Positions 1,946 through 17,947 of a DNA stretch of 21,586 bases are shown in pieces. The stretch is from a virus. The notes beneath the pieces are model-generated. The model saw only the letters and a program-made list of their open reading frames with translations, ran no database searches and had not been told where the DNA came from. The stretch covers positions 1 to 21,586 of IMG/VR virus record IMGVR_UViG_3300032083_002862. The stretch is one strand, 5' to 3'. Every line of letters starts with the position of its first letter. Position 1 is the stretch's first letter. The position numbers and the translations under genes are program-made.

Positions 1946-2752
1946 TCACCTAGTTTGTAAAAAGTGAGTGAATCTGATTGCATAATAGAAAGATTGTTCA
2001 TAATCAGACTTAAACACAACAAAAGAAGATAGAATTTGTTTTTCGTTATCTTCAATTATTTTTTGCTTAAGTTGAGAAAGAAGCTCTTTATTGTTTTTCA
2101 TCTCATCATCACTTACAATATTAATATAACATGTTTCAGTTGTGTTGTCAAGCGGATAATATAGTTTTTTCTTTTCGGTGTTAAAGTCCCCATATTCAAT
2201 AGTTCTAATCCTAGAAATGTCTTTAGGTTCGTGGTGGGCTCCCATTACCGGGTCTTGGTGTAGATAGAAGATTATGTTCTCAAACACGTTAATTATGGCT
2301 TCGTTTAGGTGCTCGTAGAGGTTATCAATGGTGATGTGCGGCAGCATGTCAGTTATTGACTCATTACACATTAAATACATTGAACTTAACAGGCCAGATC
2401 TGGTGTATTCTTGAAAAACATTAAAAGCAACTCGGTTTAGCTTTCGCTGAGTTGGAGACAGCATTATTTCTTCGGGATAGATATAGACTAGGTTGATTTT
2501 CTTGTCGTGAATTAATTCTAAAAGCCTTAATGACGCTGCGGAAACTTTTCCGGCGCCACAAACGAAGAAAAAACATTCATCTTCGTCAAATTCAAGCAAA
2601 TGGCGGTAATCCGTCAGCTTTTGGTCGTAATCCTCTGGTGAGCTGAACTCTGGAAGTTCCGAACCAGCATCTATGGTAATTTTTTTATGAGAATCTGAGA
2701 ATCCTTTAACAATCTCACATCCCGCCTTACCTAATCCAATTAATACGCTCAC
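1946..2752 (-). CDS. Divergent FtsZ/tubulin-like protein, 268 aa
   Basis: The N-terminus VLIGLGKAGCEIV (residues 3-15) matches the first nucleotide-binding loop of FtsZ/tubulins (GxGxAGC). Residues 61-71, FFFVCGAGKVS, sit where the FtsZ signature GGGTGTG is expected, at the end of a hydrophobic strand. They are followed by a helix (AASLRLLELI), a strand (INLVYIY), and a helix with VAFNVFQEYTRSGLL, matching the order seen in FtsZ. The signature itself is degenerate, and the protein is shorter than FtsZ, so GTP hydrolysis is doubtful. The start is GTG at 2752 with GGAGG 4 nt upstream; it overlaps the polymerase stop as GTGA, which suggests translational coupling. An NAD-type Rossmann protein is the main alternative. 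Confidence 0.55.
   Translation of the reverse strand: MSVLIGLGKAGCEIVKGFSDSHKKITIDAGSELPEFSSPEDYDQKLTDYRHLLEFDEDECFFFVCGAGKVSAASLRLLELIHDKKINLVYIYPEEIMLSPTQRKLNRVAFNVFQEYTRSGLLSSMYLMCNESITDMLPHITIDNLYEHLNEAIINVFENIIFYLHQDPVMGAHHEPKDISRIRTIEYGDFNTEKKKLYYPLDNTTETCYINIVSDDEMKNNKELLSQLKQKIIEDNEKQILSSFVVFKSDYEQSFYYAIRFTHFLQTR
2123..2151 (-). promoter_or_regulatory. Intragenic sigma70-like promoter P7
   Basis: Minus strand: TTGACA (2151..2146), 17-nt spacer, TGT-TATATT (-10 at 2128..2123), inside the 3' part of the tubulin-like gene. It shares the CATGTTATATT core with the intergenic promoters and points at the 85-aa and 65-aa genes. Confidence 0.65.
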
Positions 2753-3924
2753 ACTTCCTCCATGTCTCTGTAGTTTTTGCCAATGTGCATTGATGATTTG
2801 AAGTGTCCTAGTCTCGTGTCTTCAAAAATTTGTCTTATATGAGTAATTAGATCTCTGTCTGTTTTGTCTAAATCAATAGTTATTGAATCGTGCACAACAG
2901 AATGGACGAAAGATCGTCTTCCGCTCAGAAATTTATTTATCTTGATTGCTTGAGCCAAACAATTATCGGAAGAAGATGATTGAAGCAAATAATTAAACGA
3001 ATGAAAATCGTCTGTCTCAATTCTTCGACCGAATGGTGTTTGAACAACACCGTTTATGTAATGGTTCTCTAAAACCTTGTCTCGCTTGTAAAATTCAGCT
3101 AGCTCTTGGTTTTTCTTGTTCGGATTATAGAACCAAGCGAAGAATTTCTTCTTTGCCTTGTCACGAGAACATTTAAGTATTTTTGCGTTAAATTCATGTA
3201 TATCTTCCTTGGGTTGGGGTTCGCCGGATAGAGACAAGAGAGTTCTTATCTCGGCACCATTGAAATCGAATTGAATGAATGCATCATTCTTTGGAACAAC
3301 AATATCTGCAATTTCCTTCTTTAAATTAAGAATAGGAAAAGAGTTTGGTTTTGTTGTTAGACGACCGGTCACAGAACCATAAATATCGTAGGAAATGTAG
3401 GAAGTTTTGCCTCCAAAACTCTTCCAAAGAGATCTAGCCTTATGATCGGTCTTCTGGTAGTTAAATAGTTTGTTTTGATTCAAAATTACCTGATTATTGG
3501 AAATTTCGTGAACTAATTTACTGAGATCAATCATAAACTTATGATTTGATGGTTTGGTATGATTTTCAAACACATATTCACAAATTTCATTTTTAACTTG
3601 ACACCAATGAATCAACGCTTGTTCTGGGATGATATCAAACAAACATACATCATCAATGTTAATTTTTGCAATTGATGCTGCCTTTACAAAATTCTTAACT
3701 TTCTTTTTGTGGATTTCAAGTCGTTCGGACAAATGTTGAGGGCAAGCTTCTTCAAGTGATTTACCTCCACACCAAATCCGAGCATATTCATAATCATCAT
3801 CTGATAGATGAGGTGACCAATCCCAAGTCTTCTCAAATGCTCTCTTAATGTGTCCATAGTAAAACTCTCCGTTTGAAAAGAGACCTAAACAGTCTCGCTT
3901 GTCATCTAAAATTTGAAATATCAT
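2749..3924 (-). CDS. Minimal family A DNA polymerase, 391 aa
   Basis: The C-terminal half carries the Pol I motifs: TGRL at 186-189; motif A FDFNGAEIR with Asp220 (metal) and Glu225 (steric gate); a motif B O-helix in which Arg254, Lys258, Phe262 and Tyr266 have the exact 1-5-9-13 spacing of E. coli Pol I; TPFGRR; and motif C VHDS with His345 and Asp346. It ends in HIGKNYRDM, like the Pol I terminus. Motif C has Ser instead of the usual Glu after HD. The first 170 residues do not show 3'-5' exonuclease motifs. The start at 3924 is chosen for GGAGG 4 nt upstream; the frame is open to a GTG at 3957 without a better ribosome site. Its place behind baseplate genes is unusual. A role in replication or repair is inferred. 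Confidence 0.85.
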   Translation of the reverse strand: MIFQILDDKRDCLGLFSNGEFYYGHIKRAFEKTWDWSPHLSDDDYEYARIWCGGKSLEEACPQHLSERLEIHKKKVKNFVKAASIAKINIDDVCLFDIIPEQALIHWCQVKNEICEYVFENHTKPSNHKFMIDLSKLVHEISNNQVILNQNKLFNYQKTDHKARSLWKSFGGKTSYISYDIYGSVTGRLTTKPNSFPILNLKKEIADIVVPKNDAFIQFDFNGAEIRTLLSLSGEPQPKEDIHEFNAKILKCSRDKAKKKFFAWFYNPNKKNQELAEFYKRDKVLENHYINGVVQTPFGRRIETDDFHSFNYLLQSSSSDNCLAQAIKINKFLSGRRSFVHSVVHDSITIDLDKTDRDLITHIRQIFEDTRLGHFKSSMHIGKNYRDMEEV

Positions 3925-3959
3925 TTGCCCTCCATAGCTGAAGAGACAAACTACCACAT

Positions 3960-5159
3960 TTACCTCTTCTTTAATTCCGATTTTCTTAGTACGTGGTTTA
4001 ATCCTCCAGGTTTATTTTTGTAAACACTTCTGTACTGTTCATTAATATAACCTATTGCTCTGGATATGTCAAATGTTTTTTCTAAGTTTTTTGCATTTGC
4101 TGTAAATTTGTTTCTGTCTGATATTGAATACTCAGTATTTTCTTCAAAATACCTTATATTATTATAATATTCTATAAAGTATTTATTATTATATAATATA
4201 TTAAATTTATTAATATTAATATTATTTCTTATTATATTACTCTTTATAGATTTCTTTCCACAAGTTATAATATTCTTTTCATAAGGATATTTATCTGCAA
4301 ATCTATTGTAAGAATTAAATAAATTTCTCTTAAGTATATCAACATCTAAAGTATTCGTTTGTATAAAATTCTCAGAAAATATCTGATTTATACTTGACAA
4401 GTTGTATGTTTCATGATATATTATAGATGAGGGACTGGCTAGATCTGCAACAATGATCCACGGCGAGTTTTTCATAACGGAGAAACCAAAATTATTACAA
4501 ACGTTCAAATAATATGGGAAATTTTCGCTTTCTATGAAAGTTTCCTTTAGCTCATCAACATCAATTGCTAAACCAGATAAATCTATTGCAAGTCCAGAAT
4601 GAAAAATACTGGAATTCTTGCTTCTATGCCATGCCGTATAGGTTATTGGAAAGGTTGGAGTTATTTGTTGAATATAGGCCATAAACTCTTGAAAATAAGA
4701 TTCAGCAGTCAAAGTTCTTCTTCTGTTCAAAAATATATTTTCAAAATTAATCATAACATTAGAGAAATATTCTTCATAAGCAACTTTAGGATTCTTATAT
4801 GTTCCGTATGCTTGTGGAGTTGAAAGAAAATCATCATCTGATCTTATCTTTCCTCCATTCAATGCTCTCTCAAAAGTTCTCTGGAAGTCCTTGAACTGAT
4901 CTGCCACGAAGTTCATCAGGACAACTCCGGTTGGATTTTCCCCTGAGACAACGGTCTTTAAAGAATCTTGATTGGGCACCACTACGTTTAAATTTTGGTC
5001 AACTCTTCCGTAAAGGTTCCTCTCAGCAAATAGGAAGTCAACAACGCCGACAGGTCCGAGGGAATTATTCTCCGGAAATGCTTGAATATCATACTTTCGT
5101 CTATTGACGGTAAGTACTGTTGTTGATTTTGTTGCGTTTTTTGCTTTAAATTTGGCCAT
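3960..5159 (-). CDS. Putative virion/baseplate protein, 399 aa
   Basis: The start overlaps the stop of the 1304-aa gene as TAATG, with GGAG 7 nt upstream, so it belongs to the structural operon. The middle (about residues 125-250) has a pattern I associate with phage baseplate-region proteins: a YEEYFSNVMINF helix, GLAIDLSGLAID, FPYYLNVCNNFGF and then SPWIIVADLASP. The N-terminus is basic (MAKFKAKNATKS), and the C-terminus is also basic (LRKSELKKR). Residues about 297-340 are an Asn/Ile/Tyr-rich segment encoded by an extreme AT island, with composition unlike the rest of the gene. No enzyme motif is intact. Structural role inferred from position and the recalled pattern. Confidence 0.6.
   Translation of the reverse strand: MAKFKAKNATKSTTVLTVNRRKYDIQAFPENNSLGPVGVVDFLFAERNLYGRVDQNLNVVVPNQDSLKTVVSGENPTGVVLMNFVADQFKDFQRTFERALNGGKIRSDDDFLSTPQAYGTYKNPKVAYEEYFSNVMINFENIFLNRRRTLTAESYFQEFMAYIQQITPTFPITYTAWHRSKNSSIFHSGLAIDLSGLAIDVDELKETFIESENFPYYLNVCNNFGFSVMKNSPWIIVADLASPSSIIYHETYNLSSINQIFSENFIQTNTLDVDILKRNLFNSYNRFADKYPYEKNIITCGKKSIKSNIIRNNININKFNILYNNKYFIEYYNNIRYFEENTEYSISDRNKFTANAKNLEKTFDISRAIGYINEQYRSVYKNKPGGLNHVLRKSELKKR
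4044..4072 (-). promoter_or_regulatory. Intragenic promoter-like site P8 upstream of the polymerase
   Basis: Minus strand: TTGACA (4072..4067), 17-nt spacer, TATATT (-10 at 4049..4044) within GTTATATTA, shared with the local promoter family, although the TG of the extended -10 is missing. It lies about 115 nt upstream of the polymerase start. Confidence 0.5.
4394..4422 (+). promoter_or_regulatory. Antisense promoter-like site
   Basis: Plus strand: TTGACA (4394..4399), 17-nt spacer, TATATT (4417..4422), with TGA before the -10 (extended -10). The CATGATATATTATA core differs from the CATGTTATATTATA core of P1-P6 by one base. It points against all genes of the window. No convincing plus-strand gene follows. 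Confidence 0.4.
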
Positions 5160-14704: not shown

Positions 14705-17700
14705 TTAGAATTCAATTCCGGAACGGGTAATTGAGAAATCGATAGCAATAAACTCTATTGCCTTTGCTGGTTTAATGAAAACCTTAGCATACATAATGTT
14801 GCGATCCTGGTAATCAGGAGTGGTTGTTGTCTCATCAAGAACAAGCTTGTACTCTGAAATACCGAATCTTGACTTAGCATCCGCAAGGATTGGGTTTGCT
14901 GACGCTTTGAATCGGTTCCAAGTAGCATTTACATTCTGATCAAAAAGAACAGTTCTTGCAACTGCACCAACGCGGCTCTTGAGATAAATCATCAAACGAC
15001 GAACGTTGATGCGATCAAGAGCGGAAGGGGTTTGTTGAAGAGTCTTTTGACCGAATACAACTGTTCCTTCACCCGGAAAGTTAGCAATTGGGTTAATATT
15101 AACTTGATAGAGATCATCACGATCTGCTTTGTTAAGATTCTCAGTTGCTTGAGCTACTCTTGGTCCGTTATTTCCACCGAGTCTGCGGATACCACCGCGA
15201 TTAAATCCAGCAGGAGCGAACCAAGGTGCACCAGATGCAGCGTCACTTTGAGCAAGAACTCCAACACCAGCGACAGAAGAAGGCACAACCAATCCAGAAT
15301 CAAGACCACCAAGTCTGACCGGTGGATAGTATGTCGCAGCATAGCTTGAATTATAATCAGCTGTGTTAGCATCTGAGATTACTCCGTTGACTGTAGGAAG
15401 AACTTGTGTTCCACTGTTTTCGTGTGCAGCAAGATAGCCACCATCAAAATCTACTATAGCTAGAGCATCTCCTCTATCGCCGGTATTCTCTATCAATTCT
15501 CTCTGAAGAGATGTATTGGTAAGTCCGGGCATTGAAACAACATCGTATTGAACAATCTCTGAATCTGATACAAGATCAATGACCTTGTTAACAGAGTAAT
15601 AAGCATAAGAACTAGTTTCATTTTTCCCGCTAAGAGCGATTGCACTTGAGAACGGATCAACCAAAGTGATATCAACACCATCAAACCCACCAAAGAATGG
15701 AGCTCTGAATTGTCTAACTTTCTGTGTTTCTAGAAGGTTTTTACTTCCACTGTTTGAAGTAACAGCTGTTTGAGCAGCGTGAGATCCGGAAGAGTAATAA
15801 TACTTACCATTTGTATCTTCAATGATTTCATCTAGAGAGAAAACAAACGCAGTCTCTGTTGAGGTACCATTGCTAGCAAAAATATCCAAACCTGCAGGAA
15901 GAGCACGAACGATATCTTTATAATCTTTTCCTTCAAAGATAGCAGAAGTGTTCGCATCATTATCGCGAGCGTGTCTAACACCAAAGTAATCTTCTTTTCT
16001 ATAGTTTCCACCATTCTTTGTTCCGGTCTCTGTGAGGCGGAATGTTGGGAATTTGTAAGAAGAAGTAACGTTTGATAAGTGGGTGTTAATAAACGCGTTT
16101 GCTGCAGTGTGACCAATCGCAAGTGAGCTAGACTTAGAATCGTCAACAAAAGCGTGAACAGTGTCGTCTGTATCTGTACCAGCAGTTGGAGTGGGTAGAG
16201 CTTGAACAGAACTGCCATCAACTTCAGTACCGTATGTTACAGTCCAATAAGGCCCTGTCTCATCAGCAGTAAAAGTTACTACACCAGCGCCACCTGTCAC
16301 AGCAGAGTAACCGGGAATCTTGTTCAAGAGTACGATAACTCTAGTCGCAGTGAGCGTACTGTTTGTCGCATCAGATTGTTGATTGACATTTGCCGTCTGA
16401 CTAGTAAATGCAGTGTCTGTTGAACCACCAGCATCATTAACAAAGTTGATCACAAAGTCTCCTAATGCTGGATGTGTAATTGTTAGTTTATCACCATTTT
16501 GCATGCCGGCAGTATAAGTAATCGTAGCTGTTGATTTAACACCAGCATTTGTACCATCTCCGTGCAATTGTGGCCCGGTTGATTCTCTTTTAAGAGTAAA
16601 CCCAACTGGACGAGCAGGTCCGTAGAAACCAAACGGAAGAGCAAAAGTATCAGAAAGACCAGCTTTCCAAGCATCAGACATTTCAACATAAACATAGTTA
16701 GAAACATTTGGATAATCACCCTTAAGGATATACTTGTCGTTTGTTTGATCCCAAGTTTGGAATTGAGTACCAATTCTTCTACCGATGAAATCTTCTGAAT
16801 TTTCATTCAAGTTACATCCGGTAAAAGTTTCTTCAATAAGACCGGATTCAAGATTTTGAATTCCAACTGTGAATGTAGAGTCTGGGCTTGTAACTGTTCC
16901 AAGTTTAAGATCTTGAATAACAGCAGCATAATTTCTTTGAAACCACTCTCCATCATGAAGAGATATAAGGCGGAACAATTTGTCTGCATTAAGCAAATCA
17001 TATGAAGCATATCCGCTTGTTGGGTTTGGATTTCTATTGACGAACCAACCAGCCTTAGCCGCTGTTGCTTCTCTTCTCTGGTCTGCCCAGTAAGCAGAAC
17101 CACTAGCCAACGGAAGAAGCACTCCGACTTGCTTTCCAGCACTAGAAGATGTATCTGTTACAATCTCTTTGACATTTGTTTCGTGGCTCTCACCAAGGAA
17201 ATATTTCTCAGTGGTGGCTTGGTTTGTAGAAGTTAATTTCTGTGGGTTACAATTCAAAACATTGCGAATGAAACCGTCTTGGACATTGTCATTCAAGTGA
17301 AAAGTGAATGATTCACTTGTGGCAGGTCCAGTGTGAACTTCAAGCTTGAATGTGTTTGGTTGTCCTGATGTACTATCTGAATTAATCATAACACCAGCAG
17401 AGGCTGTTGTTGTACTTGTTGTTCCAGCGATTGTTCCACTGAGAGCAAGTGCAGCTCCAGATGTATAGATAATAGCAGCCAATGTACCGTTTGCTGCTCC
17501 GGTAGAAGCAGAAGGTGCTACAAAGAGACCGTATGCAAGTTTATTGCTAGCAACTGTTGTACTTACAGCGTGATCTAGAGTCCAACCAGCTTTTACATAA
17601 GAGCCACCTTGCTTAGAAGATGCTTGATCTTCTCCAAGAAGCCTTACGAATGTAACAGGTGAAGTTTCAGATGCAAGCCATGCTTGAGCAGCATAGAGTC

Positions 17701-17947
17701 CGTAAGTTGGAAGTTTTGTGTTTCCATCTCTCCAGATATCTGTTGCGTTGCTTTTGCCACTTTGTGGTCTTCCAAAAACTTCATACAACTCGTTCAAGTT
17801 ATTTATCTTGACGGGCTTCATAGCAGGTCCTGCTATAGATTGTCCAATAATCAAAGCACCGTCATCGGTTACTTCGTTTGGCACTTGGCTTTCATCAACT
17901 TCACGTAGAAGGATGTCAGGTGATATAAAATCAAATTTACTAGGCAT
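14705..17947 (-). CDS. Tail sheath protein, gp18-like, unusually long (1080 aa)
   Basis: The N-terminus (DILLREVDESQVPNEV, GALIIGQSIAGPAMKPVKI, LNELYEVFG) and C-terminus (ALDRINVRRLMIYLKS at about 985, then YAKVFIKPAKAIEFIAIDFS and TRSGIEF) are typical of contractile tail sheaths, whose ends link neighbouring subunits. T4 gp18 has 659 residues; here about 400 more are present. Two Thr/Ser/Gly-rich, beta-type stretches look inserted: about 145-245, and about 470-590 (DKLTITHPALGDFVINF ... GVVTFTADETGPYWTVTYG). These probably decorate the outside of the sheath (inference). GGAG lies 8 nt before the ATG. A 61-base gap precedes the gene, the longest in the operon. Confidence 0.9.
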   Translation of the reverse strand: MPSKFDFISPDILLREVDESQVPNEVTDDGALIIGQSIAGPAMKPVKINNLNELYEVFGRPQSGKSNATDIWRDGNTKLPTYGLYAAQAWLASETSPVTFVRLLGEDQASSKQGGSYVKAGWTLDHAVSTTVASNKLAYGLFVAPSASTGAANGTLAAIIYTSGAALALSGTIAGTTSTTTASAGVMINSDSTSGQPNTFKLEVHTGPATSESFTFHLNDNVQDGFIRNVLNCNPQKLTSTNQATTEKYFLGESHETNVKEIVTDTSSSAGKQVGVLLPLASGSAYWADQRREATAAKAGWFVNRNPNPTSGYASYDLLNADKLFRLISLHDGEWFQRNYAAVIQDLKLGTVTSPDSTFTVGIQNLESGLIEETFTGCNLNENSEDFIGRRIGTQFQTWDQTNDKYILKGDYPNVSNYVYVEMSDAWKAGLSDTFALPFGFYGPARPVGFTLKRESTGPQLHGDGTNAGVKSTATITYTAGMQNGDKLTITHPALGDFVINFVNDAGGSTDTAFTSQTANVNQQSDATNSTLTATRVIVLLNKIPGYSAVTGGAGVVTFTADETGPYWTVTYGTEVDGSSVQALPTPTAGTDTDDTVHAFVDDSKSSSLAIGHTAANAFINTHLSNVTSSYKFPTFRLTETGTKNGGNYRKEDYFGVRHARDNDANTSAIFEGKDYKDIVRALPAGLDIFASNGTSTETAFVFSLDEIIEDTNGKYYYSSGSHAAQTAVTSNSGSKNLLETQKVRQFRAPFFGGFDGVDITLVDPFSSAIALSGKNETSSYAYYSVNKVIDLVSDSEIVQYDVVSMPGLTNTSLQRELIENTGDRGDALAIVDFDGGYLAAHENSGTQVLPTVNGVISDANTADYNSSYAATYYPPVRLGGLDSGLVVPSSVAGVGVLAQSDAASGAPWFAPAGFNRGGIRRLGGNNGPRVAQATENLNKADRDDLYQVNINPIANFPGEGTVVFGQKTLQQTPSALDRINVRRLMIYLKSRVGAVARTVLFDQNVNATWNRFKASANPILADAKSRFGISEYKLVLDETTTTPDYQDRNIMYAKVFIKPAKAIEFIAIDFSITRSGIEF

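Follow-up and report, generated by a model that had tools for sequence, protein, structure and literature searches.

A probable divergent member of the tubulin superfamily encoded beside a family A DNA polymerase gene in uncultured phages

The locus and its relatives

The window is the whole 21,586-nucleotide stretch of DNA that was analyzed, positions 1 to 21,586 of IMG/VR virus record IMGVR_UViG_3300032083_002862. An open reading frame at positions 1946-2752, on the minus strand, starts with GTG and encodes 268 amino acids; an earlier, sequence-only reading had given the same limits and length, to which the strand is now added. The gene is called tubulin-like here on the grounds of its 61 homologous loci and the predicted fold of a homolog. 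Directly upstream of it (2749-3957, minus strand) is polA, encoding a family A DNA polymerase of 402 amino acids that matches the phrog_17 DNA polymerase (E 2.1e-17) and PF00476 (E 9.3e-8, yet below the curated cut-off). The start of the tubulin-like gene overlaps the polA stop by four nucleotides (GTGA, 2749-2752, minus strand), and a Shine-Dalgarno-like GGAGG (2757-2761, minus strand) lies a few nucleotides 5' of the GTG. A sigma-70-like promoter, TTGACA-17-TATATT, is found ahead of polA (4044-4072, minus strand). Another, within the 3' part of the tubulin-like gene (2123-2151, minus strand), probably serves the small genes downstream.

Other features of the window were also recorded. A leader reaching about 70 nucleotides is repeated at 374-446, 775-847, 1157-1229 and 1399-1471. 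It consists of a sigma-70-like promoter and a ribosome site and precedes small minus-strand genes; three of its four copies keep an exact TTGACA. Positions 1210-1404 encode a 64-amino-acid protein with a histone H1-like Hc1 match above the cut-off (PF07432, E 1.4e-7), and positions 839-1162 a 107-amino-acid HAD-type phosphatase that matches polynucleotide kinase and acid phosphatase families. The tail sheath protein (14705-17947) is very long, at 1080 amino acids. Its tblastn matches in known phages and its Pfam sheath domains are mainly C-terminal, and the remainder may therefore have been inserted or serve as decoration.

The tubulin-like gene is present at 61 distinct loci, whose proteins are 22-78% identical to the window protein and about 265-300 amino acids long; 31 of them are mutually less than 85% identical. 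With the window protein as sole query, 11 loci were recovered, and iterated alignments widened the family to a clade at 43% identity, a pair at about 60% (L057 and L056) and a distant group, clade C, at about 30%. Eleven residues are invariant in the 28 aligned members (G8, F18, Y42, F62, L75, Q114, R118, S119, R181, I182 and Y209), which together with the number of loci indicates that the gene is more than a chance reading frame. No homolog was found by tblastn with the window protein and a clade C protein in 50,697 GenBank phage records, and a pattern scan of GTDB genomes did not recover the family. Nothing usable was matched when PDB, Pfam, PHROGs and phage genomes were searched with single sequences, and no description of the family was found in the open-licence literature. 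FtsZ matches within the phage collection mostly look like host contamination and were set aside.

The gene neighborhood is well conserved. All 51 loci that have upstream sequence carry polA upstream, immediately so in 47, and the two genes overlap by 1 to 25 nucleotides in most relatives. This linkage supports the earlier proposal that the protein is translated together with a DNA polymerase. At the other four loci a single reading frame of 104-131 codons, which may be mis-called, sits between the two genes. A sigma-70-like promoter matching at least 10 of 12 positions was found within about 175 nucleotides ahead of polA at 24 of 30 loci, 15 of these at 11 of 12. The usual downstream genes are a gp32-type single-stranded DNA-binding protein (SSB) and RecA, preceded at many loci by a small Sm-like protein, and clade C continues with a 5'-3' exonuclease, DnaB and ribonucleotide reductase. 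The 82-amino-acid Sm-like/WYL_2 protein that often lies between the tubulin-like and SSB genes (for example L090:489-737) is a possible partner of the tubulin-like protein. The T4 gp23 capsid protein is carried by 6 of 11 records tested. A single-sequence query with the phiKZ nuclear shell protein (chimallin), run with no positive control, gave no match in 11 partial records. No TubR or tubC neighbor was recognized among the labeled genes of the loci, with short unlabeled reading frames covered in part.

Predicted fold and nucleotide pocket

The predicted fold is clearest in a clade C homolog, L087, which is about 30% identical to the window protein. Its AlphaFold2 model, calculated from 13 sequences, has a pLDDT of 69 and a pTM of 0.72. 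A fold search with this model returned TubZ, FtsZ and tubulins as 47 of the best 50 PDB matches, with TubZ at the top (E 1.2e-6); the remaining three were two SelB chains and one short-chain dehydrogenase. The TM-score against Methanocaldococcus jannaschii FtsZ is 0.59 over 315 columns, and among viral proteins a phage product labeled FtsZ GTPase matches best (E 3.7e-7, TM 0.67). The window protein's own model (18 sequences) is poor, with a pLDDT of 56, and Foldseek gave a mixed list including septins, flavodoxin-like reductases and FtsZ, the last with the highest listed TM (0.43). At that pLDDT, and with element names that are our own assignment, the model reads S1-H1-S2-H2-S4-H4-S5-H5-S6-H6-H7, the strand-helix order that the sequence-only reading had considered to fit the tubulin fold. 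The window protein is assigned the fold because it is homologous to L087 over its full length in one collinear alignment.

A GTPase fold with a central helix H7 is thus predicted for L087, and more weakly for the window protein, rather than a plain Rossmann dehydrogenase or another fold lacking H7. After H7 the L087 model has strands and a helix, mostly at pLDDT 40-72, so a C-terminal domain is predicted with low confidence. Known filament formers have H8, H9 and a C-terminal tail helix, all of which seem to be missing from this low-confidence region. In phiKZ PhuZ the protofilament interface involves T7, the base of H8 and S9 (PMC3678025). The apparent loss argues against a canonical protofilament and leaves canonical filaments uncertain.

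Profile comparisons point to the same superfamily. The family scored 34.9 against 17 PhuZ sequences in hhalign, a score reached by none of 150 column shuffles (mean 14.9, sd 2.5, maximum 22.5). The PhuZ signal comes from the GTPase domain alone (32.7; shuffles 13.4, sd 2.9), and in profile comparison the C-terminal part resembled the C-terminal domains of neither FtsZ nor PhuZ in sequence. Against FtsZ the score was 22.5, equaled by one of 60 shuffles. TrkA, NAD_binding_2 and flavodoxin controls fell within their own shuffles, although the shuffle distributions for FtsZ and these controls contain outliers and are a rough null. With few family members aligned, an early comparison did not distinguish FtsZ from the controls, and a larger alignment and PhuZ templates proved necessary. 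When profile A4 was searched against 177,635 PDB sequences, the top five matches were all FtsZ, though weak (E 0.1-0.2), and the alignment between the family and FtsZ is collinear over about 110 residues. With broader profiles FtsZ or CetZ stayed among very few matches, without significance; the broadest, A7, gave three, one of them an FtsZ/CetZ entry (E 1.1). No family member exceeded the curated cut-off of PF00091, and none matched the PhuZ family phrog_4733.

Both glycine-rich segments noted earlier are present, GLGKAGC at residues 6-12 and CGAGKVS at residues 65-71. The first belongs to the T1 loop, IGLGKAGC (residues 5-12; 2717-2740, minus strand), in which G8 is kept in all 28 aligned members and G6, A10 and G11 in 27 each. 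The second lies at the T4 position, CGAGKVSAA (residues 65-73; 2534-2560, minus strand), a degenerate loop with G66 in 25 and G68 in 27 of the 28. The canonical GGGTG[ST]G is missing from the window protein, in agreement with the earlier statement that the GGGTGTG loop is lost. Clade C has GGSGDVSGAAL at this position, a GGSGxVxG type resembling PhuZ loops such as GGSGSVIGPxx. In H7, Tyr146 and Asn150 (2303-2317, minus strand) form a putative guanine-pocket pair, with Tyr or Phe in 23 and Asn in 27 of 28 members; their spacing of four is that of tubulin Y224/N228 and FtsZ F183/D187. The T1 glycine loop and the H7 aromatic and Asn pair thus occur together across the aligned members, and their roles are presumed from known tubulin and FtsZ families.

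The segment after H7 is T7-like and may correspond to T7. The catalytic motif N-x-D-x-x-D is absent from the 28 members, aligned by eye, and a single acid remains, Glu175 in the window protein (2228-2230, minus strand) and Glu or Asp in 24 of the 28, which could act as the T7 residue. Since this acid is kept, the earlier suggestion that the protein binds but does not hydrolyze nucleotide reaches beyond the evidence. Farther along is an R-I-x-T motif (residues 181-184; 2201-2212, minus strand) without known counterpart, with R181 and I182 in all 28 members and T184 in 27. Taken together, structure prediction, fold search, controlled profiles with PhuZ above all shuffles, and the H7 base-pocket residues support the FtsZ/tubulin fold, and the family is assigned to the tubulin/FtsZ superfamily with high confidence.

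A second protein with an FtsZ/tubulin domain was also encountered. It has 346 amino acids, is encoded at L352:2188-3228 (minus strand; the record of L331, IMGVR_UViG_3300032048_000004), and is more canonical, with an AGGGGGTGSS loop and a phmmer match to FtsZ (E 7e-6). Its gene lies between the prohead protease and prohead core genes of a phage that also has the polA-linked one, and its relatives, L354-L357, are 67-82% identical. It was considered as an alpha/beta-like partner and rejected. A profile found it in one of 24 records, and the prohead protease-to-core slot holds other genes in four other records, so it is no general partner. The single weak match in that slot, L363:1560-2222, is a glycine-rich beta structural protein and not a tubulin.

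Possible roles

In our reading the gene represents a new family of divergent phage tubulins that is linked to a PolA replisome. Gene order is the basis for placing the product with the replisome or with replicating DNA, and the protein is probably a GTP-binding organizer or accessory of replicating phage DNA. A sigma-70-type promoter would drive polA and the gene together, probably early, and translation of the gene would be coupled to that of polA. Most likely the conserved T1/H7 pocket would hold a guanine nucleotide, and the product would self-associate or bind the polymerase/SSB machinery. Replicating phage DNA could thereby be gathered, held or positioned in the cell, organized as by PhuZ or TubZ but attached to the replisome and not to a phage nucleus. 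The positioning or scaffold function proposed earlier would fit here. The computed part of this explanation is supported, namely the fold, the GTPase-domain homology, the T1/H7 conservation and the linkage to polA and other replication genes. As a whole, a polA-coupled divergent tubulin that organizes phage DNA and characterizes a lineage of uncultured T4-like phages replicating with family A DNA polymerase is the best explanation, and we give it about an even chance. That the protein is a GTP-binding subunit or short polymer of the superfamily, co-translated with and attached to the PolA replisome in phages without a nucleus, is suggested tentatively. PhuZ is dispensable in phiKZ (PMC10299810), so a gene kept in a conserved operon is not necessarily essential.

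The protein could instead serve the DNA polymerase as an accessory subunit with a tubulin fold, forming no filaments and acting in processivity, regulation or nucleotide sensing; we consider this possible, though doubtful. Such a subunit would sense GTP or GDP and attach to the polymerase with which it shares a message. Several observations are consistent with it: even highly divergent relatives keep the gene strictly next to polA and overlapping it; PolA, SSB, RecA, exonuclease and DnaB genes form a cluster; the predicted model seems to have lost elements through which filaments make contact; and the R-I-x-T motif is invariant, unlike known tubulins. Gene order alone, however, does not demonstrate contact, and in Flavobacterium phage immuto unrelated genes occupy the tubulin-like slot of a comparable PolA replication cluster, so PolA in general does not need the protein.

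It is improbable that the protein is a host-takeover factor, a truncated FtsZ/tubulin mimic that stops division during infection by capping host FtsZ or assembling together with it. The FtsZ-like predicted fold, the shortened C-terminal part and the early expression that the promoters make probable would suit this role, but the gene occupies a fixed slot between polymerase and SSB genes and not a place among variable early genes, and its nearest profile is PhuZ, not FtsZ. Least probable is a Rossmann- or flavodoxin-like protein that binds NAD or nucleotide and has look-alike glycine loops: weak Pfam matches (TrkA_N, best E 5.8e-4 in single members, and Sacchrp_dh_NADP) and the mixed fold matches of the window protein's poor model are countered by an L087 model matching almost only the tubulin superfamily, a predicted H7 whose Tyr/Asn pair is a non-Rossmann feature, the lack of any NAD-binding Rossmann profile match over cut-off in the window's record, and the hhalign controls, on which this identity was rejected.

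Two kinds of phage tubulin are described in the open-licence literature: PhuZ, from jumbo phages that form a nucleus, and partition proteins of the TubZ type. If it is indeed a polA-coupled divergent tubulin, this widespread family of T4-like phages would extend phage tubulins to another lineage, hint that a tubulin-like GTPase is directly connected with a replisome, and show, as an experiment of nature, how far the tubulin fold can be reduced.

Comparison with known systems

PhuZ of the phiKZ-like jumbo phages (phrog_4733) is likewise phage-encoded, gives the best profile match and shares the T1 glycine loop, and many PhuZ proteins have a T4 loop of the GGSG type without GGGTGTG, as in clade C. 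The sequence-only reading had supposed a protein unlike PhuZ, a view that this profile match and the PhuZ-like T4 loop of the sister clade contradict. The family differs in length (PhuZ has 312-344 amino acids), in its lack of a phrog_4733 match and of a detectable PhuZ-like C-terminal domain or tail, and in adjoining polA in T4-like (gp23) phages whose 11 partial records gave no chimallin match. With FtsZ the family shares the predicted fold, the element order up to H7 and the collinear alignment, but it lacks GGGTG[ST]G and the N-x-D-x-x-D of T7, has a shorter C-terminal part and remains below the PF00091 cut-off. TubZ, the plasmid and phage partition tubulin, is the top PDB fold match; the family proteins are about 100 residues shorter, have no recognized TubR-like neighbor and adjoin a DNA polymerase gene.

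FtsZl1 (Makarova and Koonin 2010, PMC2875224) is also a divergent FtsZ-like GTPase domain in which the FtsZ C-terminal domain is unrecognizable. It was recognized through its GTP-loop signature and belongs to cellular vWA/GTPase operons, whereas the present family is found in phages, lacks the signature and lies beside polA. AlpC of prophage CGP3 (PMC4446434) is another phage protein of a cytoskeletal superfamily linked to phage DNA replication, but it is actin-like where this family is tubulin-like.
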